A stretch of 64,000 nt of DNA from Onchidella celtica (taxonomy: Eukaryota > Mollusca > Gastropoda > Systellommatophora > Onchidiidae). Below the pieces are notes generated by a model, which was not told where the DNA came from, searched no databases, and saw only the letters and a list, made by a program, of their open reading frames with translations. The position numbers were made by a program, and so were the translations under genes. Shown here piece by piece: positions 11,701 to 61,592 of this stretch (position 1 is its first letter; each line of letters starts with the position of its first letter). The stretch lies in NCBI GenBank assembly GCA_963931925.1, contig OZ007576.1, positions 16,252,802 through 16,316,801 of the forward strand. The letters run 5' to 3'.

Positions 11701-14700
11701 TGCAACTACAGTGGGTGAAGGGTCACAGAAAACAAGTATGAACTGAAATGCCACTGACTAAACAAAAAATCACAGCCATTTCAAAAGCATGGTCAGACTG
11801 ACCTGACCAAATCAAAACACCAAATCCAAATTTCAGCTGAACCAAATCAAGAAAGCAATACAATCAGTTTCACTTATTATTTTTTAAAAAATACAGAAAG
11901 AACAGAATTGGAACTGAAATAAACCAAACAGAAGTCAGTACTGAACAGAGGAAACAGAAGAACTGAAATCCTGACTCGGAAAAAGAATCTGGAAACCAAA
12001 CAGTTCCTTTGTGGACTGGCTGGTGATGTAGCTACTCACCTGCAGAGCTGCAGTAGTGGCAGACAGATTAAGTGTACTCGGTCTTTGTCCTGTTTTTGAT
12101 GCCTGTGCAGTGGGGGTGTTAATCAAACATGTTAGCCACTAGGATTATAATCGGGTACAAAAAAAAAAAAGCTAAGCTTTGCATGTTTTTGAAAGATTTA
12201 CTGGTCTGACTCTCCTCTCTGTTGATTTTGACACTTATATTCCGAACTGCAGTTTTTGTTGGAGTTTCAGTTTTTATCTCTTTTCTTTTCAGTATCATGA
12301 AGCATTTCTTCCTCTCTATCATCACAAATTGGAGACACATCATTCCTGAAAACAGCCCATGAAACCAAAAATACTGAAGGCATTCTTTCATTTCCAAATA
12401 GCTTCTGAAAGCAGCTGTCTTGTGTCATTTGAACAATCACAGCAAGAGTGTAATAATAATATACTGAAAGATCACAAAATCTTGCTGAATCAACAGAAAG
12501 GTTTCAGATTTTGTGTTTTAGGGTGGCACTCATGATATAATAATTCATGGCTTCACAATGTTTAAAGCTTATCTTGTAAAAATTAACACTACATACGCAT
12601 ACAAAAAAATTCCCTATAAGTATTTGAGTAATCTGGCCAAATAACTACTTTTACTTTGTACAGAATAACTGTGTTAGTTTCTTAAGGTTGCTGACAGCTC
12701 TGAAGAAGTGTTAAGATATTCCACTTAGACTTATACAGAGAATACGTATAGTGTAAGAAAAATAGCGGTTTGTGAGAGTGGCATGTTGTGGAAAGATACA
12801 ACAGAAAGAAAAACATGCAACAACTGTCTCACTAGGAAAATTGACAAATTTAACAAATACCAAATCCGGCATTTATTCTATATCTTTAACTTTGTAAATG
12901 TACAGAAAGTTTTCCAGTCTTGACAGATCTGCCTATTTTTCTTTTCATTCAGTGATATAACACTATGTCCACTTTTCTCAAGGTTTAAATATAAAAAATT
13001 ATGCACAAGATGAAAAGATCAGAAATGTATTGTTTAATTTGAATTTCAGTGACATGACAAAACTACTTTTGTATGCAGTCAAATTGTTTTTCAGTAATTG
13101 GTTGCAGTAAATAAACTTGATGTAATCTATCATGATGCTTGATAAGAATTGGTCTTATTAATAGCTGATCTTGGTCTTATTAATAGTTGATTGATGCTTG
13201 ATAAGAATTGGTCTTATTAATAGCTGATCTTGATCTCATTAATAGTTGATCACACAATTAACAAAAAGAGATATAAGTGACAGATTCTTTTCCATATTAC
13301 TGTTCTCAAAATAAAGAAAATTACCTAAAATAAGAACTTGCACCAAGTCATGCAAAAAAAACAACTGTATAGCAACATGCCCCTGATAGCTGTATTGGAC
13401 AGAAGTACAAAATGAAAGACGAATGTCTGTATACAAAAAACTGAACATTAGAAGCTTTTCCTTCCTTTTTTATTAGGCAAAGTTTTCAGATTTCCAAGAA
13501 TAATTGCTGTTCACAGTACCGTATGTCTCAGTAAATACCTTTCTAGAAGCTGTTATCACAGCTATTTCAGCAAAAAAGGAAAGGTGTGAGAGAGAAGAAA
13601 AAAAAAATGTTCCACAACAATGAATTTTGAGGATAATGCCAAAACAGAACGTACGTGTTCCTTCATAATTCCTCAGTTTTCTTTAATGATTATCATGTTA
13701 GTCTGCTGAGAAGAAAATTACCTATAATTCTGTAAAGATTACCATGATCTAGGTACAGAGTAACTGAATGTTATATATCTAAACCTGTTTAATAACTAAA
13801 ACAATGATGCCCCCAACAATAAATAAATTCTATATATAATTCCACAACTTGCCATTGCAATAAAGCTGAAAATCAAGGAATCTGTTTAAGTTTATTACTT
13901 GTGCTTTTCTTAATTGGTGTCGATTTCCAACTTCTTGTGAGGAAAATTGCAATTTGGCCAAAAAACAAAAACTAACTAGCACTTAGATGATTTACTTTGT
14001 AGCCAAACAACTGCATATCTATTTGAAAAAGGTTTAATTGAATGGTAGTAAAGTGCACTGGTAAATAAAATACCTCTGTCAAAGTGCATAGGTCAGTAAA
14101 TTAATTAGCGGGAGAAGAATAAACAGGGTTGTCAAATCAAAGTGATCAAAAATTTTAATGCAGTATGTAATTAAATGCTGATAGCGAGACAATGTTATTC
14201 TTAATATGGGCAAATAACAGGAATATGAATTTTCCAAAAAAAAGGCAACAGTATTAATAGCAATAATTAATAGTAGTTAAAAGTAATTGTATTAACAAGT
14301 ATATTTAAAGACAGGGGGTACTGGGTGGCATGATTTCTCCTTTCACAATGTTCTCAAGTCAAGAAGGCTGTGAGGAAAGAATTCTGTCACTTGGAAGGAG
14401 AAATTTATGGACGATTATGAAAATGAATTTAGCATTCTTGCTAATGGAGGCAAATGATGCAGGGGTTAACAGTAGTTTTACATGGTGCATCTTCTGAGAG
14501 AGGCATGTGTTTCTCAACTGTGAATAGTGTGTGAGTATGAATGCATTCTTCATTCACTGGATTTTGGTGCAATACCTACCTATGAACCTTTTAAGGCGTT
14601 TCATTTCACAACATTTTAAGATATAAATGAAAGTCAGTGAGAACATACAACATTCAAAAAACATACAACAAGGCCTAGTCAAGTCCATGCAGCACATTGA

Positions 14701-17700: not shown

Positions 17701-20700
17701 ATTTATGTTCTAAATATGAATTAAATTACAGTACAATGAAAGTGTTTAAAGTACTGATACTATCATTTATTTTAATGATAAATACTCCTTTTCTGCTGAT
17801 CATACAGGGAAAAAAAAAAATCTTCATTACAAAACAAAGGGTGTACAATCATGTAAAATGCTGTATCTGAAAAGAGCTGCAAAGAAATAAATTTGTGCAT
17901 CATTTTTTTTTCCCTAAATATCCCAATTTTAAGTCACCAGAGATGAAAAAGCAGCAGCTTGAACCTTTCTCCAAAATTCTGCTCTATACCCACACACAAA
18001 ACATACTAACAGCGAAGCAAGGAAAAAGGATGCGCAAAATGAAAATTGGTAAGATGTGCTATGAAACTGTCAAAACTTGAGCTCGAAATTCACCATCAAT
18101 CCTGTTTAAATGGGATTTATTTTATTTGAAAATGTGGAAATTCTTTAACCTTAACTACTACGTCAGTCCTGTTCAAATTGTCACTGTTCCCTAAAACTGT
18201 AGTAATCGGTTTTGGCTATTTCTCAGGAGAAGCTAAAAGACTGTTTCATTTAAGCGCAAGTGGTCTAGTTGTGATGAACTTTTGAAAGTTTGCTGTTCGT
18301 TTATTCTTCGGCTTTGAAATCTATAACCAAGATCATACGATGCAGCTTCGAATGTCGAGTATATATAAAAAGTGATTTTTTAAATTTTCGAGTTACTACA
18401 GTCTTACAGAAAAGGGTGACGAAATGTTAGGGCATTATCTTTTTTCTCTTGTCAAATAATTTTCTGACCAGGCAAACACCGGAATTAACTCAAACCAGCG
18501 CCTTGTTTGAATAATGTACACAATGGAAAACCCTCATACATGATTGACAGAAGGCTCTTTCTTGTCTCTTAATGGGACGAAATGCAAGGGCTAACATGCT
18601 TTAAACTTCAACAAATCAAATGACACTTGCTATAACTGAATCAAAAAGGACAAAAAGTGATGCTATATGACACCTGATATTAAAATCTGAACTAAAATTC
18701 AAAGCAAAACCCAATTAAATACATCCTGGGAAGAAATTGATGTTAGAAAATGACACTTAAGCAAGTAAAAAAAAAAAATCTGGCTCTACATAAAGCTGCA
18801 GCCCCACAATTAACATCAAGCAAGATGGTTCAAATGTTGCAAGGGAAAATGTAAAAGAAAACTATCCTCCTTTTCAGCAAGTTTGGAGAGGGGAAAGAAA
18901 CTTATCCAGTATTGAGTGAAATCCTGTTTTGTATTGGCTTTTACAGGAAACTCATGTGTAGCTAATACCACAGTGCAAAAAAAATTTTTTTTTAAATCAA
19001 TATCCTTAGAATCTTATGACATCGAAAGCATTAGTCATCAAAATTTCTTATTGAAATTAATTTCTTCTACCAAAAAGGCAGATGCACACTGAATCAAATA
19101 CTATTGTGTACAACCTTTTAACTGCTTTCTTATAATGCCAACTTAAAAGGCCGAGGTTTCACACTGAACAGGATATCAATTTCTTTACACTTGTCTGGGC
19201 ATGTGGGTGGGATTAACAATATACTTCAAGAGTATTAACCTGTACGATTTCTAATGAATTTGCATACCTTGAATTTTGGTTTAAAAATTCAGCATTTACA
19301 AAACACATGCCACTCAGTTGCCCTGAAGAATGCCAATTAATTATTTCCACCCTAACTTTAAAGTTCAAAGGTTAGTGGGAGGTACAACTTGCTAGCATGG
19401 CCTCTATCTTGAGGTTTTCAAAGAAGCACAGTAAAAATTATAGGGGAAAAAACTTTACAAATGCACACCAAAGCTAGGATCACTATTCAAAATGACAAAC
19501 AAATTACCACAAAGCTTGTTCAATTATGGTTTTTCATTTTTATTTGTAACATTGATACCTCTGCCCACAGTTATCCTATTACTCAGACTACTCAGAGTGT
19601 TTTTTTTTGTTTTGTTTTGTTTTCACCTTTTCAGTTCTGTTTAATGTTCTGCATGCATTTCAAACTGCTGAACAAACTTTGTGGTATGATACCAGATCGT
19701 ATGAAATGTCTCATATGATGCAGAAAGAATACAACATCAGATTTCTGTGCACTTTTTCAAAACAGGCAGAATAAGATGAAACATATAAACACATAACTGG
19801 AATATACAAAAACAAGTTCATATGTTTACCTGGATTTTTTATTTCAACAAGCATTTTAAATTTTTGTTGGTAAATGTTAACGTGGCCTCATGAAGAGATT
19901 TATAAACTTTTACCGCTTCCCGTGCCTTATTGTGTAAAATATAGCAATATAGCAAGGGCATTAAATCCTGACAATGGTTGGCAAAAGTGCAAAGGCTGGG
20001 TAAGGGGAAGTGGGGGAAACAAATTCAAAAATGCTGCATGTACCTGATTGGCCAAGGATGTGACTCCCAACCTTACCCGCGATCTCGACACACTCGAGGC
20101 GGTGGAGGAGATGGATGACACACTTTCTTGGCTTCCACTGCGCTCCCTTGAGCTGCGCAGGCTTGTGGACATGAGGGGGCGCGAGTGGGGTGATGGAGTG
20201 GATGTAGCTGATCCTGCACGCGAGATTTTGTGGACAGGGGCAAATAATCCATGGAGGGGTTTACAGTCAAAGTACCTAAAATACGGATGAGACAAGAAAA
20301 TTTCAGACATTCTAACATGGTGAACTCTGCAAACAAAATCTACAAAGCATGGCATATGACCTGCGATCAGCTGATTAAAAATTTGTAATGAATCAGTTTG
20401 AGTATCACATTGCATTGTTCTGGTGACAAAAAGTCTGGAAGAAACATTACATATCCAGTAATGTCACATATTAAAAACACTCTGGTTCTGAAAAGGTCAG
20501 TAAATACTGAATTAACAGTTCTAACACAATACTGAATTAACAGTTCTAACACAATGCTGGAAATGATGCCATGAAAAAAAAAAATCATGTAAATCATTAC
20601 AATCCCTTGCTGTGGAGTCTGCAAAATTCAGTTTTAGGAGGAATGAAAAACAAGAAAAAACATTCACTTCACTAGAGGCCTCACAATTACCACACTGTGT

Positions 20701-23700
20701 AAATGCTGGTATATGTCTAGGCTAAATTTAGAAACTGCTCACAAAACAAGCCATAAAATAAATCTTTGGCAAAAAAATGTCTGCATTATATCAATACATC
20801 CTGTCATGTACCTCTTGCCGGCAACAGCTCCATCATTTTTGCCTAAAGGGTCGTCCAGTTCCACACCAGCCCACACCCCTTTGGCAAAATCTGTCTCACC
20901 AATATACCGTAGCACTCCTGGTTTGGAACCACTGACAAGAACCTGGTTACAATCAAACAGATTTGGATAAAATCATTAATCACATCCTTGCAGGGCTTTT
21001 ACTGCTGAAAACTTGCACTTCAGAAAAAGCAAATGATAGATAAAAACAAATGATTTAATTGTAGCGACAGACAAAAGCTTGAAGATTTGAATTACTGACA
21101 CATTAAAAATCACAGTATTCCAAACCCCGTGTTCACTAAATTCTAAAAGGCATGCATGCATATCCACAAACATGATTTTCTTGCAAGCTTTTCATTATAA
21201 AGACATAAGTTGATGAACCTTCTGCAGCCTTGCATGCACACCATCCCACAAAACCCAAGCAAAAGCAGATTTACACCACAAAGCAAAACTTTATATGGTT
21301 ACATATAAGCATTTTAATGATCTCAAGGCAATTTGCTAGACACATCTAGTGACATGAAGGCACCACATGGCACTGACACTGCAGTATAAACGATTTTCAA
21401 ACATTTGCAGAATTTGTCTCTCTTTCTCATATCTGGGCCATATGAAAATTAAGGGTACAATGCCACAGATGGCAAATACACAACATATTTTTTAAAAACC
21501 ATAGAAATGGATGAGGTGCAGTAGCTTGTTTTTTTTTTTTGGTTGTTTTTTTTCCTTTCCAAGTCTTTTTATCGTAGCATTTCTGCATTGTTTCTAATGC
21601 AGACCTTTAAAAAACAGAACTATTTTCTCTTTACCTAGGTGGCCGATGCACTTAATTATGTTCCAGCTACCATCTGTACTCACCCTATCCCCAACTTTGA
21701 CCCCACCAGGCATAGTGCCAGGTAATCTCATGGCTGTAGGTGCAGTCCCTGTAGGCGTCGTTCCTGTAGAGGAAGCTTTGTGAAGACTAGAGGAGGAGGT
21801 AGACAGGTTTTTGCTTGCACTCATACCAAGCCGTGACTGAGGACAGAATGAGTTTGAAATTTTTATGGTAACATGGTATTTTGACAGGCTGAAGATCTTT
21901 GCTTTTGAAGGATTACTACATGAGGCAGTTGCACCTCCGACAGTCTTTTTCTACAATATAAATATGAACTTTGAGCCAAACAAGTGTGGTCCAATACTGT
22001 GGTGTAAGAAAAAAAGGATAATGACTTAACTGTCCTTGTGGGCTTATACTGCTCTTATGAGTTTTAATGGTTTGTCTTCAACTGGGTTTTCACAGTGTCT
22101 CTTTTCATTGCTACTTCAAAGCTTTAATTGCAGATTGCAAACAGCACAGACAATCATGTAAAACCACTATTGCCTAGCCTACTTCCAGAAGCGGAGGTAC
22201 ACTACTCCAATTTTGAATAAATTTCTTTTTAAGGAAATGAAATAAAATTCTTCGAATGTGAATTTTGAAGTCCTGCTTTTTGTTTCTGCACCAATGTAAC
22301 CATTTTCATGTAAATATTTTCATGTATCCTTGTTCTATCCTTAACATCACAGATAAATTGTAAAAGTGCTCGAAAAGCCATGTTTATGTACACAAACTTT
22401 AAAAAATACGTTTTCATGAAGGAGAAGTCATGGGTTTCTTGGTATTTCCATTACCAAGCAACCTAGTTGCCAGGAATGCTTGAAAACATCACATCAAACA
22501 TGGCCTTAAGCAGTGCACTAGGCAGGACCTCCCTCCCTATTTTTTGGTGGCACGTCACAGGGTGGTGGGCAGTTCTGGGTTAACAGTTATCAATGGGAAT
22601 ATTTTCATCCTGTTTCTTGTTTGTGTAACAGTTATGTAAAGAAACATCAGAGGGCCTCACCGATGGTCTAGAAGGAATGCTGGATGTGGGAGCTGCTGTA
22701 CCATTGGTGGTGACAGGTGGAACCTCTAATGCTCCACCAGTCATCTTTGATTCACTGGAAGCGCTGTCATTGCTCATTGACAATGGCCGAGATGGTGACT
22801 GTTCTGTGTGGGACAATTTGGTCAGACGCGAGAAGACACCTCTTTTTGGTTCACACTGAAAAGGAGAGAAGGAAAAAACACAACAGCTGACAAGTGCTGG
22901 ATAAATCATAAATCATCAAAAATCTTGACATTATATACTGTGACCAGGAAATACTTTGTGACACATGCAAAGAAAAACAGTTGAGGAACCTGTCAACTGA
23001 CAAAATGTTTGGAAGCTAATTCTATCCTAGGGGATTTCGCACAAAATGAACTAATTCAGATTTAGTGAAAAAAAAATCTTGACTTTAAAAAAAAGCTGTC
23101 CAATCAATAGAAAACTCTCTTTACATTATACACGACAAAAGAAAAAAATATGACCAAAAGAAATAAGAGTTAAACTTTTTAAATAATACTCATTTTCCAT
23201 CATGAAAGATATTGAAAAGTTTCCCTTTTTCTATCAGTGCTAGGTAAGGTTTTTTTATGGGTTACATCCTGATAATGCCACTTCTACAAGTACATACCTG
23301 AAAATACCTAACACCCATGACACTGCCATCATTCTTCCCAATAGGCTCATCCAGCACCACACCAGCCCAGTCCCCAGGGGCAAACTGAGTTTCTCCAATA
23401 AAAGCAATGACACCTGGTTTTGTACCGCTGACCCAAATTCTATCTCCAATTTTGAAATCATCTGTGTTAAACCCATCTATGAGGGGCTCGGGACCTGAAG
23501 AGGACAACACAAATACATGTAAAGAAATGTTTCTCTCCATCTTTGCGCACACCTTCAGCTTCAAAAAAAGAAAATTCAGCTGCAGGCAATTACCTTCTGA
23601 TTTCATAGGGCCCAAATTTTACACAATATTACCATCACTGTTACTACGCGACTATGCTCAATTACTCATATATTCTATAAATCTTCCAAGAGGCTTCTTT

Positions 23701-27200: not shown

Positions 27201-30200
27201 ATCAAACGTCACGACTCTGAATACCTAATATTAATATTAGTACGGTACGCAGTGTCCGTACATGAAACATGCATGTAAGATATGAAACAGCATTATTTCA
27301 TGCACTGTTTATCTCCCTCAATTATACTGTCTTTGGCGTATATTATTTTTTCACTCAAATGACATTGCCACGTACAACTAACTGCACATGCACCAGATAT
27401 AGCCATTAACCTACTGACAATACTGAAAAGAGTACATTATGAATTCATCACTATTATTTCAGGCCAAATGAAACACAAGAGCGTATGGAGCCAAAAACTA
27501 CAGACATTTACAACATTACATCAATGAACTTAATGACGTAAAGTCATGCAAAGAACTTTTTCGTACAACCAACACCATTCTAGGAAAGGATACAAGATCT
27601 CCCCTCCCCTGCATAGGGTCAGACGACGAGTTGTGTGATCAATTTATAACATTTTTCAGTAACAAGATTGAAAACATCCGTTCTTCACTCGATCTAGAAC
27701 CAAGCGAGAATTTAGATTTCCCTGAGTTTACTGGACAAGTTTTAGATTCATTTTGTCCAGTCTCAGAAAGAGATGTTTTACTCTGTATCAATAATTCCAC
27801 TATAAAAACGTGTGACCTTGATCCCATGCCTGCTCATGTACTCAAAACCTGTATTGATCTTGTCGTACCTCACATTACTCAAATAGTAAATATGTCACTT
27901 GTCACAGGCACAGTGCCCAGTTCCTTTAAACAAGCCATTGTAAAACCATTATTGAAAAAACCTGGGCTTGATGAAAATGACTTCAAAAATTATCGACCAG
28001 TATCCAATTTGCAATTTGTCTCAAAAATTCTGGAAAAGTTTGTCTTGGGTCAAATTTTGGCACACTTTGAAATAAATGGATTGCAAGAAAAATTTCAGTC
28101 TGCATATAAAGCTCAACATAGTACCGAAACTGCACTCATAAAAGTAACCTCTGATTTCTTAGATTATATTGACAGTAAGAAGCTGTGTCTTTTGACCCTT
28201 TTAGACCTATCTGCAGCTTTTGATACAATCGATCATTCTATCTTACTTACAAGACTTGAGCGCTCTTTTGGTATGTCGGGTACTGCCCTGTTATGGTTCA
28301 AGTCGTATTTACAGAACAGAGTTCAGTCAGTGCAAATTAAGAACAGTTTTTCCAAACAAGTTGCATTAGACTATGGAGTTCCACAAGGGTCTGTCTTTGG
28401 TCCTGTGCTTTTTACACTCTATACGCAGCCCCTTGCAAGTATTTTACAAACTCATGGACTACAATATCACTTTTATTCGGATGATGTTCAGATATATATT
28501 GATGGCACCATTCAAGATCTGTCAAATATGACTCTCGCCACTAAACAATGTGTTCAGGAAATTAAAATGTGGATGACAACAAACAAATTGAAATTAAATG
28601 AAGACAAATCAGACATAGTTCTATTCCACAACCCACGATTAACAAAAGATCTTGAAAATGTCACCATTGATTTCAATGGCCATGAATTATCATGCAAAGA
28701 AGTTGTAAATAATTTGGGTGTGTTTATTGATCACCATTTGTCAATGGGTTCAGGTGTAGGATCTCTGTCTAAATCCTTAAATTTTCAGTTGAGAAGAATA
28801 AGCCTTGTCCGAAAATATCTAAATGAAGAGACCACAAAAACATTAGTTACATCCCTTATCTTGTCTAGACGGGACTACTGCAATTCACTTTTAGCGGGTA
28901 TTCATACAAAATTTTTGAATCGTCTACAGGTAATCCAAAATAATGCTGCCAGGGTGATAACCAAATCCAAAAAACGAGATCATATCACACCACTCCTGAA
29001 AGAATTGCACTGGCTCCCCGTGAAGCAAAGGATAATTTTTAAAATCTGCATCCTGTGTTTCAAATGTCTGAATGACTCGGCTCCTTCTTATTTACAAGAT
29101 TTGATAAAACTGTATACACCAGGGAGAAGTTTAAGATCCTCCACTGATTCCACCATGCTAGTGACACCTGTGAAATCATACAGATGTTATGGTGAACGAT
29201 CATTCACATATATTGGCCCCTTAATGTGGAACAAGTTACCTATGGAACTGAGACAAACAAAATCATTAGTAAGTTTCAAAAGGCAGCTAAAGCATTTTTT
29301 GTTCCAGCAGGCTTATTTTTCTTGACTTACCTGAGGGGAGAGAGCATGTGATAGAAGGAGTGAGAATGTGATGGGAAGAGAGAGAGAGGGGGGTGGGGAG
29401 AGGGAGTGTGGGAGAGAGAGGAATGAGTTTTTATTACTTGTAAAGCGCATTGAGCATTTATTGGAAATGCGCTATATAAATGTAATTTATTATTATTATT
29501 ATTATTATTTACGATGGCATATTACAAGACATATGATGGCTTTGGCTGAATGGAACTAAAATACATGTATTGTGTTTGTGGGGCAAATTGGAGTTTCTGC
29601 TCCGGTGGCGATTGTATTTCAACTGGTAAATATCTCTAATATAGAAAATCATCATCAACTGTTCTGATTTTTTAAATTTATGGGATGAGATAATTGGCCA
29701 ATCGTGACATATTAATAGGCTAGTTTATTAACGCCACAACAGAATTAACACAAAACTACATAAAGAAGCAATATGAGCCTGAATAATCAAAAAAAAAAGT
29801 CATTCATGCTGGTCAACCAAGCTCGCTTGAAATTTCTTCATACAGTGGATCAGAATAAACAATAACAGTAACAACCACAACACTTGATACCTTTGAGAGA
29901 CCTGGAAGCTTCGTTGGCGTAGGCATCTGCTCGCTGGGGAGCGAACCCCACCCCTCGGGCTGATTTGGCGATAGCACCTTCATTAGCAAGAAACAGCAAA
30001 ACAACAACAGCATGCATTTATTACAACAAATCTCAAAAGCAAAACTCAAAGAAAATGGGCAAAAACCATGCTGTTATTAAAAAAAAACAAAAAAACAAAA
30101 AAACGAAGTAAGTAGCTGGTCAAATATGTTTGCGGCGAAGTGGCGCAATTGAGCTGGCAATGGAAGCACTTCTCAAGCAGTGTCTCCCAATGAAATGTTC

Positions 30201-42300: not shown

Positions 42301-43008
42301 AAACCGTTTGAAGCAGAAATATACAACTGAATGACTTATTGCAACGAGAGCATTTACTGATCACGTCACTTTGAACGTCTAGTTTAACAAAGTTCTGTTC
42401 TGTCAATGAAAATTTCAGTTAGCGAAAGATATTCATCTTCGACAACAATAAGCAACAACAAAATAGCCATCTGTTGCAGGTGTGAAGTGAAAGGGGGAAA
42501 ACACAGGCGTAGCCCGTGTGTATTCTGGTCGTATTATATTGCTCTGGTAGATCGATTTTCCAATGTTAAGTAAAATATTGTAAATGAGGATTATTTTCAA
42601 GCACCCCGGTGTGATTTATTTAAAACCGATGGTAGTGACTAATTCTATTTCTTTTCCCAACGATTGTTATGATCATTGCTTTTCAGCAGAAATGTAAGCT
42701 CTACGAGCCCCACCTGACTCCACGATTGATTACTGTGGATTAATTAATGCCACATAACATTAGGTGAACCAGTCCCTGCGACAAACTATCTCAGATCTGA
42801 ATGTCAGTCTTTATCTTCTCTACTTCCCGCATCTATCAAATACTGTTGTGCAGGACACACTTGTGATGGAGAATAGACCCCAAATCGAACAACGCACAAT
42901 TTAAAGAGTGAGCATATTTATATGACGCTAAAAATCCATTTCGCTATAGGCCTAGTACGCTAGCCGACTCACAGACTAATAAAATACCCAGACTGGATGA
43001 TCCCATTG

Positions 43009-46409: not shown

Positions 46410-46424
46410 ATAAACTTTGGAAGT

Positions 46425-46710
46425 GCATAGGTAGGGAAGATATCCCCCACCTATACACTTTGCATAGGTAGGGAAGACACCCCCTACCTATTCACCTTGC
46501 ATAGGTAGGGAAGATATCCTCTGCCTATTCACTTTGCATAGGTAAGGAAGATATCCCCAGCCTGTGCAATCCCTATGTGCATGCAGAGAAGATATTATTT
46601 CTTGACTATTCACTTAACTTAGGCAAGGAAAATATTTTTGTCTCTGCATATTTTTTAGGTCGGGAAGATATTTCTTGTGTAATAGGCCTACTTTGCTTAG
46701 GCAGGGAAGA
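46425..46710. repeat. 37-bp subterminal tandem repeats within the 1.6-kb element
   Basis: Units beginning gcataggtagggaaga start at 46425, 46462, 46499 and 46536, an exact period of 37. About four further degenerate units follow to about 46710 (forms such as ttaggtcgggaagatattt). Each unit repeats the terminal motif, so they are probably transposase-binding sites or copies of the end. Confidence 0.92.
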
Positions 46711-56290: not shown

Positions 56291-57075
56291 TTTTCTTTTT
56301 CCGTCGTCTTGTGCCTGTTTCTCTTTTCCATTCCCCCTCCCCCGTCTTCTTCCCTCTGCTTTCCATCATTAATGAATGAACAGCACTTTTATATCCACGC
56401 AGTGTCTTTTGAGCGTTGATTCTCTTTTCAGTGACCTTATTTTATATGTACCATAATATATGTTCTCCTGCCAAACTGATTTTCCACTACAACAACAGCA
56501 ATAACTAATTTCTAATCAAAATGTGTTGATTTTAACACACATGGGCAAGGTCGATGTATCTGAAGCTGCATTTTCCCCTAAATTTCTAAAAAAAAGAAAA
56601 AAAAGCAACAAACAAAAAAACAAAAACATTTTGCCGTCTTTGGTAGACAGTTCGTCCGCTCTTTATTGCATTAAAGTGTTTTTCCGGTCTTCAAATTTAT
56701 ATCTGACCTAATCTTCCATCCATGTCCATAATTCGTCTCAACTTAATTTATTTTATCCTCTTTTATCATCTATATCGGCTATAGTGAATAGGTCGAGCTA
56801 GTGTTGGGCCTTCTTCACTGTTCTGCAATTCATTATGGTAGGCCCTCATTAGGCTTTATATCAAACGGATCCGCGGAAGTCTTCTCTCCTCTCCCTCCAT
56901 CTATTTTAAGTGATATTTTGAACTACAATTGTCTACTGTCTTTGCCAGAAACCTCTTCTGTAATTACTGTCACAGGCCTATCTAAAACAGCATTTCGTGC
57001 ACTAAGCGTATGTACAGGCTACATGTACCGGTGTAGCAGGCCAGACTATACCCCCGCCAGACTATACCCGGGGTT

Positions 57076-57129
57076 AAACTGGCCTAGCCCAGAATATGCC
57101 CCGGGGTATATTCTGGGCTAGGCCAGTTT
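57076..57129. repeat. Near-perfect 54-bp palindrome in the left end of the foldback element
   Basis: Two 27-base arms meet without a loop at 57102/57103 (centre CCCCGGGG) and differ at one pair (57098). The arm reads AAACTGGCCTAGCCCAGAAT and onward to CCCC. It would extrude readily as a cruciform. Confidence 0.95.
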
Positions 57130-58439
57130 ATACCCCGGGGCATACTTTGGGCTAGGCCAGACTATACCCCCCCCAGTCCAGATTATACCCCCTACATTTT
57201 TTTGAAAACAAGTCAAGACCACAGTTTATTTCAACTTTAGTTTAAATTGTTCATTATCTCTGTCATCACTTATCACATTGAAGCATACATTCTTGGCTGT
57301 TGTAAATTATGATACATTTAAGAGAAAATAAACATGCAGTAAAAAGCATTGATATACAAAAGGTTTGAAAACCCATTCAAATTGATATGATTAGACTTTA
57401 ACACTAATTTTACTTGTGTCCGTTGGTAATTGGTATGATTATTGTTTTTTTGTTTTTTTTTACAATTAGTTGTCCATGAGTTAAACATAATTATATTGTA
57501 TTTTTTTGTTTGGCACCACTGACATATACTTAGTGGCAAGGTGTGAAATAATTATAAAACTCTTAAGTGTAAAGTCATCTGAATTTTATTTCTAATTTTT
57601 GAAAATCAGAATTGTGCTTGATATGTCAGAACAATTAGATCTACATATAAAGTTACAATAATGCAGAGAGAAAAGGCCGAGAAAGAACACACAGAGAAAA
57701 CAACAACAACATTTTAACAACTGAACTGACAGATGGTGCAATTCCATCATCCAGCAAACATTAAATACTTCACACAAAACTAAAAATACATACTAAACTT
57801 TTTTCACATCATGAACTTAACCTGTCCTAATCCACCTGAGACGTTACAGGATGCTAACCAGTAACATACAGTAATAAAAATAAGAACACGAAATCATCTT
57901 ATTTACTCTTGAAAATAAAGTGAATATAATCAATATCAGAACCATCATCATCATTATCTTGGAATATTATAAAGATAAGAGGGAATGTAAAAATGACCCA
58001 CACATCATTCTAAAATCTATAAGCAGCAGTGTGTACCAATTACATGTATGTGTAAAACATGTGTTCAATCTTTTCAACTATTCAAGTAGAACTGGACAGA
58101 AAGCTTTAGTAAAGTAGCTTTGATAATCGTGAAAACTGACAGATTAAATCCATTGAGACAACAGTGCCTTGCAGAAAGTAATTACAGTATGTTACGGCAA
58201 AAATTCGATGGGTCATGTTGCGTTAATATTTCTTGTTAGTAAATTCTTTGATAGCTTATTTGTAGAAAGGTATACATTTCATGTAGCTGATGGTTTAAGG
58301 CACTGGATTAGTTTGCAGGGCATTTGAAGGATTGCAACCATGTGTTATAGTGAATTTAATAAAGGCGTGTCACTTGCGAGTGAAATAAAATTTTAAAAAC
58401 TTAATGTTGTATCCTGGAATATTTTGCCTGAATATGTTA

Positions 58440-58850
58440 GTATAATCTGGACTGGTGGAATATAGTTTGGCCTAAACACCATAGTTTATTTCAATCAAAG
58501 TTTAATTCATTTTTTTATCACTGTCAACGGGCACCATAGTAATACATACATACATACATTCTTGACTTCCGTAAATCATAATACAATTCAAAGGAAGAAA
58601 CATGCATTATTATGTATTGATATGCTATGGGGTGAATACCCATTCAAACTGATATGATTCAACTGTAACCCTCATTTCACTCACGTTCGTTGGCATGTAG
58701 TTTTTGTAGTTTGTTGCCCATGAGTAAAATTTGCACTGTATTCTTTGTTTGGCAGTGACATACACTTAGTCGCAATGGATGAAATAATTAACACACTCAT
58801 AAAAATGAAGTCATTTTGGAGTATTTTTGTGTGCGAATACACAGTTGTTA
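58440..58850. repeat. Third, direct copy of arm sequence in the foldback spacer
   Basis: The segment begins with a terminal-module piece (tataatctggactgg, then atagtttggcct) and continues with sequence parallel to 57205-57600: accatagtttatttcaa, cattcttg, aaacatgca, gaatacccattcaaa, and gcagtgacatacacttag. It has the same orientation as the left arm and is more diverged than the termini, so it is probably an older nested or duplicated arm. Confidence 0.8.
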
Positions 58851-60114
58851 AATCCTCTGGCAAGGGAGGTGTCAAGCTTAGGAAGGTAAAGACGGACAAG
58901 GTTTTTTGTTTTTTTTAAATTTTATTTCACTCGCGAGTGACAAACACTTATTCACTAGAATGCGTAAGTTCAATCTTTCCAATGCCTTGCAAACTAATCC
59001 AGTGTCTTAAACCATAAGGCACATGAAGATGAAATGTATATATCTTTCTACAAATAAGCTATCAAAGAATAATATTCACTAACAAGAAATACTGTTAATG
59101 GAACATGATCCATCGAATTTTGTCTTAACATGCTATAGATCAAATTACTTTCTACACTGCATTACTTTTGTCTCAGTGGACTTACTCTGTCGGTCTACAC
59201 AACTGTCAAGGCTATTTCACTAAAGCTTTCTGTCCAGTTCTACTTGAATAATTGAAAAGATTTAACACATTTTTTATATGTAGTTGATACACACATATTG
59301 CTGCTTATAGATTCTAGAAGGATTTGTAGGCTTACACTGCCGTTTTTACACTCCCTCTTATTTCTTTGTATTATTCCAAGATAATGATGATGATTCTGAT
59401 ATTGATATTTCTCTTTATTTTCAAGAGTAAATAAGATGATTTCGTGTTCGTATTGTTATTATTGTATATTACTGGCTAGCATTCTGTAACGTTTCAAGTG
59501 GATCTGGACAGGTGGAGTTCATCAGGCGAAAAAATTTAGTGCCTATTTAGTTTTATGTGAAGTGGATGATGGAATTGCACCATCTGTCAGTTGGGTTATT
59601 AATATGTTTTTTTTTTTTTTATATGTGTGTTGTTTTCCGGCCTTTTCTCTCTGAATCATTGTAACAAGAAATACAATGCATGTTTCACTCATGGCCAACC
59701 AATTATCAAAATAATAATAATAATATAATAATATCAACAGGCCCGAGTGAAATTAATGCTGAAGTCTAATCATATCAGTTTCAATGGATACTCAACCCTT
59801 TTGTATATCAATGCACGTTAATGCATATTTCTTTCCTCTAAAATGTATCATGATTGACAGGAGTCAAGACTGTATGTATGTACACCAATTTAAACTAAGG
59901 CTGAAATAAATTATTATCATTTCCTCTAAATTGTATTATGATTTATGGGTGTCAAGAATGTGTTCATGTATGTATTAATATGATATCTGATGACAGTGAT
60001 ACAGAACAGGCTGAAATAAAGTGCGGTCTTGACTTGTTTTAACAAAAAAGTAGGGGGTATAATCTGGACTGGGGGGGTATATTCTGGCCTAGCCCAAAGT
60101 AACCCCGGGGTATA

Positions 60115-60166
60115 AACTGGCCTAGCCCAGAATATACCCCGGGGTATATTCTGGGCTAGGCCAGTT
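60115..60166. repeat. Perfect 52-bp palindrome in the right end of the foldback element
   Basis: Two 26-base arms meet without a loop at 60140/60141 and are exactly complementary. It is the counterpart of the left palindrome at 57076-57129. Confidence 0.95.
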
Positions 60167-60221
60167 AACCCCGGGTATAGTCTGGGCGGGGGGTATAGTT
60201 TGGCCTGTTACACCGGTATGT

Positions 60222-61592
60222 AATATTTCTCCTTCTTCCCGTATAGTTATGTTGTTGTTGTTCCTAATACGCTTTAATTGTGACATGAATTACAAAGAAA
60301 ACAACTTTTGGCCACATTTCACTGTAATCGGTGTTTGACTTTAGTTTGAGAAATATTACAGAAAACCCATTTCGAGCCTCGATCCGTATATTGACGGACG
60401 TGCTGCGCTCCGAAAATCTAAGTCTGGACTCGCATCTAAGTACTCGAATTGACTTAACAGTGTACATTTTTGTAAAATTTGTTAAATTGTTTTCTTGGTT
60501 CAGTTTTTCATCCTGTTACATTTTTTGCCTGATGAAGGTTAATAGGCCTATATTGGAAGCTTGATTTGTCTTCCCTTTCACCTTGCGTTATATTGTATCG
60601 TTTCTGCAGTGTTTCTTACGTGGGCTTTGCTGCATAGAACTTTTTATTTTTGTCACAATTATTTTAACTTTGTTATTAGTGTTGAAACTTCAACCTTTTT
60701 CGGTGGAAAAGACTGACGTAATAATAAGTTACGGCCTGTTTCATTTACGTGCGACTAGAAGAGAATTTCTGAGAACAATTTAGATATTGAATCAGAATTT
60801 GGCTTTATTTATTTAAAAGAAAAAAAAATACATTTTTACTTCTTGTAAGTCATGAATTAACATTGAATCAGGACTTTTGTCGGATATACAATGCATGTGT
60901 TGTCCTTAGATTATGGGCGACAAGCACGAGGCATCCATGCCAGCATTCCTATGTCAATCAGTTGTAGATTTGTATACAATTTCCATCCTGTTGGAGGATT
61001 ACCGCATGGGGGTTTATTCCCTACATCAAACTGATGCCAGCATGATGTCATAACCAGCGGCCCTTGGCAGGAACGATGCCACAATGCTGCGTCTTCATCT
61101 TGGTAACTAACCTAATGCGTCAGTTCGAGCCTCCACACACTCGCAGCTAACTAGACATATTCTATTTAGATTCTATATATTTCATATTCAAATTTTTTTT
61201 ATTGTTCGATAATTTTATGTGATAAATTTTCCAGTTGTCGTTTTTTTCTTTTTTTTCCTTGAAAGGGGCTGTTTCTGAAATGTAGGCCATTTTCTGTCTT
61301 CTTTCTTAGTTTGCGTTTCATTGTACCGTTGGATAATTATTTCTTACACGAGGCTTTGGTACATACAACTAAGTCTTTTTCTTTCTGGCAAATTTTGACT
61401 TTGCATAATTATATAGCCTTGCTGCGACCCCACAGTTTTTCTGTGGTTTTTATAATATTTCACCACTCCCATGAGCAAAGGTCAATCATACACGTCGGAT
61501 TTCCTTGGGATTGCGCTTTTTTGCAGGCTGGGGTATTGCATGGAAATCAGGACTGAGCAGGCTGGATGTGAGCCTGAGCGAATAAAATAATG
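60222..61592. other. Unassigned AT-rich region with one dispersed repeat
   Basis: No gene was recognised. It holds copy B of the dispersed repeat at 60939-61091. Confidence 0.5.
60939..61091. repeat. Ancient dispersed repeat, copy B (related to 47198-47345)
   Basis: It shares gccagca, ggattaccg, ccctacatcaaac, gatg and ccagcgg in the same order and similar spacing as copy A. The class is unknown. Confidence 0.55.

Follow-up and report, generated by a model that had tools for sequence, protein, structure and literature searches.

The TU elements of the sea urchin, reportedly described by Liebermann et al. in 1983, are said to be foldback transposons whose arms join a repetitive outer domain to a unique inner one; the outer domain reportedly consists of 15-bp direct repeats, and insertion is said to create 8-bp target-site duplications. 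In the account given with the description of Tetris, the superfamilies to which foldback elements had so far been linked are Mutator, in most cases, and P, represented by Galileo (PMC4079207). The Drosophila element Galileo, which is Foldback-like, is characterized by 7-bp duplications and a THAP transposase (PMC3688188, PMC3573991), and its long, repetitive terminal inverted repeats (TIRs) are described as containing several transposase-binding sites (PMC3688188). Tetris of D. virilis, a foldback element for which a Mutator affiliation was suggested, has TIRs of up to 1,735 bp and 8-10-bp duplications (PMC4079207). For Ginger1 transposons, the available text of Bao, Kapitonov and Jurka 2010 (PMC2836005) reports (i) target duplications of 4 bp, CCGG (75%) or CCGT/ACGG (24%); (ii) 5' termini TGTNR and TIRs of about 40-270 bp; (iii) full-length elements of about 2.6-7 kb, of which the autonomous ones encode an integrase-like transposase of ~500-800 aa with H2C2, DDE and GPY/F, usually together with OTU or Ulp1; and (iv) in the lancelet, a few non-autonomous copies with the same ends.

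The element discussed here lies near one end of the window (the whole 64,000-nucleotide stretch of DNA that was analysed). By structure it almost certainly belongs to the foldback class: long inverted arms account for 2,670 of its 3,181 bp, and its ends are internally repetitive. Its features, in order of position, are:

57028..57031: proposed left target-site duplication CCGG (alternatives ATGT 57023-57026, TA 57026-57027, ACCGGT 57027-57032)
57032..60212, 3,181 bp, plus strand: foldback element with termini TGTAG / TTACA (preferred boundary, one copy)
57032..58399, 1,368 bp, plus strand: left arm
57032..57196, plus strand: outer segment of the left arm, matching its right-hand counterpart at 96%; nine 17-bp words lie in 57038-57191 (change point, word scan, fold)
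58400..58910, 511 bp, plus strand: middle segment separating the arms
58437..58473, minus strand: a pair of degenerate end-type words, opposite in orientation to the arm copy next in this list
58475..58814, plus strand: third, partial and older arm copy, which corresponds to the outer half of the left arm (57215-57578) at 67% (blastn)
58911..60212, 1,302 bp, minus strand: right arm, inverted relative to the left arm
59832..59974, minus strand: right-arm tandem duplication whose copies, 59832-59882 and 59920-59974, have diverged to 80% identity
60054..60212, minus strand: outer segment of the right arm, which has nine 17-bp words and, at 60115-60166, a perfect palindrome of 52 bp
60213..60216: proposed right target-site duplication CCGG (alternative ATGT 60218-60221)

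When the element is compared with the window by blastn, three principal matches between the arms (57026-57329 with 59919-60218, 82%; 57284-57497 with 59670-59876, 77%; 57652-58399 with 58911-59665, 78%) span almost the whole right arm and the majority of the left arm; in the same comparison, left-arm positions 57498-57651 have no right-arm counterpart. The inverted arms of about 1.3-1.4 kb that an earlier note had perceived in the sequence are thus real, and chance as their source is ruled out by the blastn and word-count evidence. Its reading of the locus as a foldback transposon likewise gains support from the arms, the internally repetitive ends, the direct duplication at the borders and the lack of any coding capacity found. 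The partial third arm copy in the middle and the tandem duplication of the right arm are additions to what that note described. In the predicted fold of the whole element as RNA, 1,041 of 1,256 pairs connect the two arms, and a transcript, if made, would be a long hairpin. Both inner arm edges (58371-58399 and 58911-58940) carry a CACTYGCGAGTG motif followed by AATAAAATTT and an A-rich, tail-like run; the CACTYGCGAGTG motif at the right arm's inner edge is a perfect palindrome.

The outer segments consist of arrays of short words, as had been proposed for the terminal module. CTGGCCTAGCCCAGA, allowing up to 2 mismatches, occurs six times in the window, each time in one of the two ends (expected 0.05), and in each end the mosaic is made up of nine copies of a single 17-bp word, AGGCCAGANTATACCCC, in a scan that allows up to 6 mismatches (an extra 6-mismatch match at 57216 was discounted). 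With no more than 4 mismatches the word has 19 matches window-wide, and the element accounts for 18. Reading inwards, the words of both ends are oriented + + - + - + - + +. The ends are palindrome-rich because words 2-8 alternate in orientation, and as single strands they fold better than each of 200 shuffles (200/200; z -6.9 and -5.7 for the two ends). Matching words of the two arms are similar variants in the same order, which indicates that the word array predates the separation of the arms. CCGG occurs seven times inside the element, in six cases at a joint between words of the end arrays, as in TATACCCCGGGGTATA.

Along the arm-to-arm alignment, identity falls at a change point at 57196, from 96.3% over 161 outer sites to 83.3% over 1,005 inner sites; the likelihood ratio of this step was reached by 0 of 300 permutations (Fisher p 2e-6). 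In the left arm, the GC content also differs between the outer part (55%) and the remainder (30%). A contrast between diverged inner arms and outermost ~190 bp that are almost identical had been noted before: the step is significant, but “almost identical” is slightly generous, as the first 200 left-arm bases contain 11 substitutions at 197 aligned sites plus a few indels. The most plausible cause of the step is that the ends were under constraint throughout the life of the family, with gene conversion as a partial rival. Recent conversion between the two ends of this very copy, in place of constraint before insertion, is possible, if somewhat unlikely, and would be compatible with a Ginger1 classification. 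The palindrome-rich ends could pair, and identity along the inner arms is patchy (of 2000 shuffles, 3, 119 and 14 attain the variance observed with windows of 30, 40 and 60 sites, respectively), which may fit arm-to-arm conversion as well as local constraint; the differences, however, are scattered across the outer segment and not absent up to an edge.

A second possibility, which is not exclusive of a Ginger1 origin, is that ectopic recombination or an inversion breakpoint brought two related elements together, in which case each arm would stem from a separate insertion. The inner arms differ by 17%, rearranged extra pieces are present in the right arm and in the middle, and with CCGG-specific insertion equal CCGG borders would be no proof of a single event. 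Chimeras of this kind occur in Galileo (PMC3573991); there, as far as that report describes them, they pair two highly divergent TIRs, whereas the outer segments here are 96% alike. Moreover, both ends share one order of word variants, and a chimeric origin thus appears rather unlikely. A four-way comparison of the stretches involved in the third arm copy and in the tandem duplication of the right arm gives identities of 69-77%, with no close pair among them, and the rearrangements are therefore not recent. Two independent insertions, as the term “composite” might imply, are not favoured either: two adjacent insertions were considered and rejected, since the inner arm edges at 58399 and 58911 have no CCGGTGTNR border. 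The three CCGGTGTNR sites of the window are the two outer ends of the element and an unrelated one at 42606, and about one site elsewhere in the window is expected by chance.

The classification depends on where exactly the element ends. Duplications were listed at each symmetric boundary from 57024 to 57041 (18 offsets). Those of at least 4 bp are ATGT (57027/60217), CCGG (57032/60212) and ACCGGT (57033/60211); among those of 2 bp, TA occurs at 57028/60216, a 5-bp ATGTA is obtained with the asymmetric ends 57028/60217, and for starts from 57020 to 57041 and ends from 60200 to 60225 there is no exact duplication of 7-10 bp. With the boundary at 57032/60212, CCGG lies on both sides and the element ends in TGTAG and TGTAA (...TTACA). 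Under a first-order Markov model, CCGGTGTNR has a probability of 7.8e-6 per position and, at one end over the 18 boundary offsets, of about 1.4e-4; allowing for some 20 recognisable superfamily signatures, the chance is estimated at a few per thousand. CCGG is thus the more likely 4-bp duplication, compared with ATGT, and the element would extend from 57032 to 60212, as judged from one copy; ATGT, ATGTA, TA and ACCGGT are possible alternatives, between which a single copy cannot separate. The earlier borders at 57027 and 60217 would accordingly move inwards, and the ACCGGT that had been taken for palindromic ends is better read as a palindromic CCGG target duplication, plus the adjoining T/A, outside TGTAR...YTACA.

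The CCGG reading has a price: the T/A match beside CCGG (about 1 in 4) and the ATGT on both sides have to be coincidences. ATGT is indeed present at 57023-57026 and 60218-60221, as the earlier note stated, and flanks the symmetric boundary 57027/60217 exactly, an agreement found for only 376 of 60,000 4-mers (0.6%) at this spacing. On this basis, and in line with that note, the locus could be a foldback transposon whose ends begin with ACCGGTGTA, which duplicates the 4 bp ATGT and which belongs to another superfamily, known or not. This is unlikely, as the joint match of CCGG and TGTAR to Ginger1 would then be left as a coincidence; to our knowledge, no superfamily has ACCGGT ends. Two further placements are geometrically possible and together very unlikely: an element, Tc1/mariner-like or other, that duplicates TA and ends in CCGGTGTAR, where the TA is implied by the palindromic TACCGG/CCGGTA context, or one that duplicates the 6 bp ACCGGT and has the ends GTARCAGG. 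The latter would give GT..AC, as opposed to the termini TA..TA, occasionally TG..CA, given for the IS3EU/GingerRoot elements with their 6-bp duplications in the available text of PMC10045372.

With the CCGG boundary, the element would resemble Ginger1 in three respects: the 4-bp duplication, provided that the preferred boundary of this one copy is the true one; termini that conform to TGTNR; and a near-identical outer repeat (~165 bp at 96%) that, taken by itself, falls within the published 40-270 bp. It differs in two: the homologous arms run on over 1.3 kb at 83%, compared with published TIRs of up to 270 bp, and the ORFs tested in the element contain no transposase domain, compared with the ~500-800-aa transposase of a typical autonomous Ginger1. 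The earlier note had found the terminal module impossible to assign to a superfamily; Ginger1 can now be put forward, at the level of a proposal, and the link is likely. The element is treated as a candidate non-autonomous derivative of Ginger1 and is not listed among the autonomous members. Taken as a whole, the locus is probably a non-autonomous foldback cut-and-paste DNA transposon in an animal-like genome that is mobilized by a Ginger1 (Gypsy-integrase-like) transposase acting in trans.

All 17 stop-to-stop ORFs of at least 45 aa in the element stay below the Pfam cut-offs. The weak hits, TEBP_beta (E 0.007, 16.5 bits against a cut-off of 26.6), SEN1_barrel (E 0.03) and WTF (E 0.087), were considered as coding remnants and dismissed as sub-threshold chance matches in AT-rich ORFs. 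The element is therefore non-autonomous, apart from the possibility that the ORF scan missed a degraded transposase broken into shorter pieces.

Such an element could be mobilized in the following manner: A Ginger1-type transposase, encoded elsewhere in the genome, would bind to the outer ~165-200 bp at the repeated 17-bp words and make its cuts at TGTAR/YTACA; the ends would then be joined to a CCGG target, with duplication of this tetranucleotide. If the words act as several binding sites, selection on mobility would preserve the ends, and the inner arms, which may contain no required signal, would drift. Lengthening and scrambling of the arms, as seen in the third copy in the middle and the tandem duplication of the right arm, may have occurred before insertion by exchange and duplication among family members. 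By analogy with Galileo, long repetitive TIRs can contain several binding sites, grow and become chimeric by exchange. If CCGG is the insertion target, its position at the word joints implies that the ends carry their own preferred targets. For retroviral integrases, autointegration (self-insertion) is known. A Ginger1 lineage might conceivably have become a foldback in a similar way, by attack on its own CCGG-bearing ends and the resulting inversions; this route is most improbable, and it could yield an alternating word array, long inverted arms and inverted end-words in the middle.

Among the foldback systems, Galileo shares with the element arms of more than 1 kb, internally repetitive TIRs, and TIR growth and chimerism, as far as its published descriptions go, in contrast to its 7-bp duplication and THAP transposase; no boundary scanned here has a duplication of 7 bp, the length of the P superfamily. 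Tetris, as described, is similar in its modular long TIRs and apparently non-autonomous nature and differs in its 8-10-bp duplications, a length found for no combination of the starts and ends scanned. Like the TU elements, as these are reported, the present one would be a foldback transposon of a marine invertebrate, if its presumed host is one, with arms that are repetitive in their outer domain; unlike them, it has 17-bp words that mostly alternate, in place of the 15-bp direct repeats that TU reportedly possesses, and no 8-bp duplication. Foldback structure is already known in several superfamilies, and a Ginger1-type foldback may be new: no such element appeared by title or abstract start among the matches listed in a literature search that covers sources other than Repbase and most subscription journals, and for six end-sequence strings the matches listed included no transposon paper by title. 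If correct, a foldback on integrase-like Ginger1 machinery would support an independent origin of long repetitive arms on unrelated transposases, and would provide a case of a transposase's CCGG target motif embedded in its own ends. For annotation, the lesson is that a palindromic target duplication can mask the true ends and mimic “palindromic termini”.

Searches of viral and prokaryotic collections revealed no second copy, a silence that says little. The longer end patterns have no match in the viral_contigs and zero or one in the genome_contigs. The 14-mer CTGGGCTAGGCCAG is present once each in 67 IMG/VR contigs, which were treated as chance and not as relatives: blastn of the element against these 67 contigs (E 0.01) revealed a single 32-bp place, in L067. 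TATACCCCGGGGTATANNCTGG has one exact match in a micrarchaeal MAG contig (L068 6953-6974), which was also set aside as a relative, with a similarity over 23 bp only, no wider resemblance to the element and an estimated 0.5 or so such matches expected by chance.

The window looks eukaryotic in character, judging by its composition, reading frames and protein domains, and is taken to come from an animal, possibly a marine invertebrate. The GC content is 33-43% in 2-kb steps, and there are four ORFs with a start codon of at least 150 aa, the longest of 564 aa. No Rfam family reaches its gathering score in the window. Outside the element, the Pfam scan covered 11 stop-to-stop ORFs of at least 90 aa (the window has 52 in all), and two of these 11 overlap or adjoin the element borders; a transposase fragment may thus lie elsewhere in the window. 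A 617-aa stop-to-stop ORF at 27472-29325 on the plus strand contains a reverse transcriptase domain (Pfam RVT_1, E 6e-31), has no relative in the viral_contigs and is apparently part of a non-LTR-type retroelement. On the minus strand, an exon-like CAP-Gly domain at 23262-23618 (E 3e-21), together with a second, sub-threshold CAP-Gly piece at 19927-20463, suggests a CLIP-like gene in 19927-23618. Two tandem repeats are also present: two copies of a 59-bp unit at 13133-13250, 96% matching and overlapping a 22-bp repeat call, and a 37-bp repeat at 46424-46558 in 3.6 copies, each unit of which has a short inverted repeat around GGTAGGG...CCTACC.
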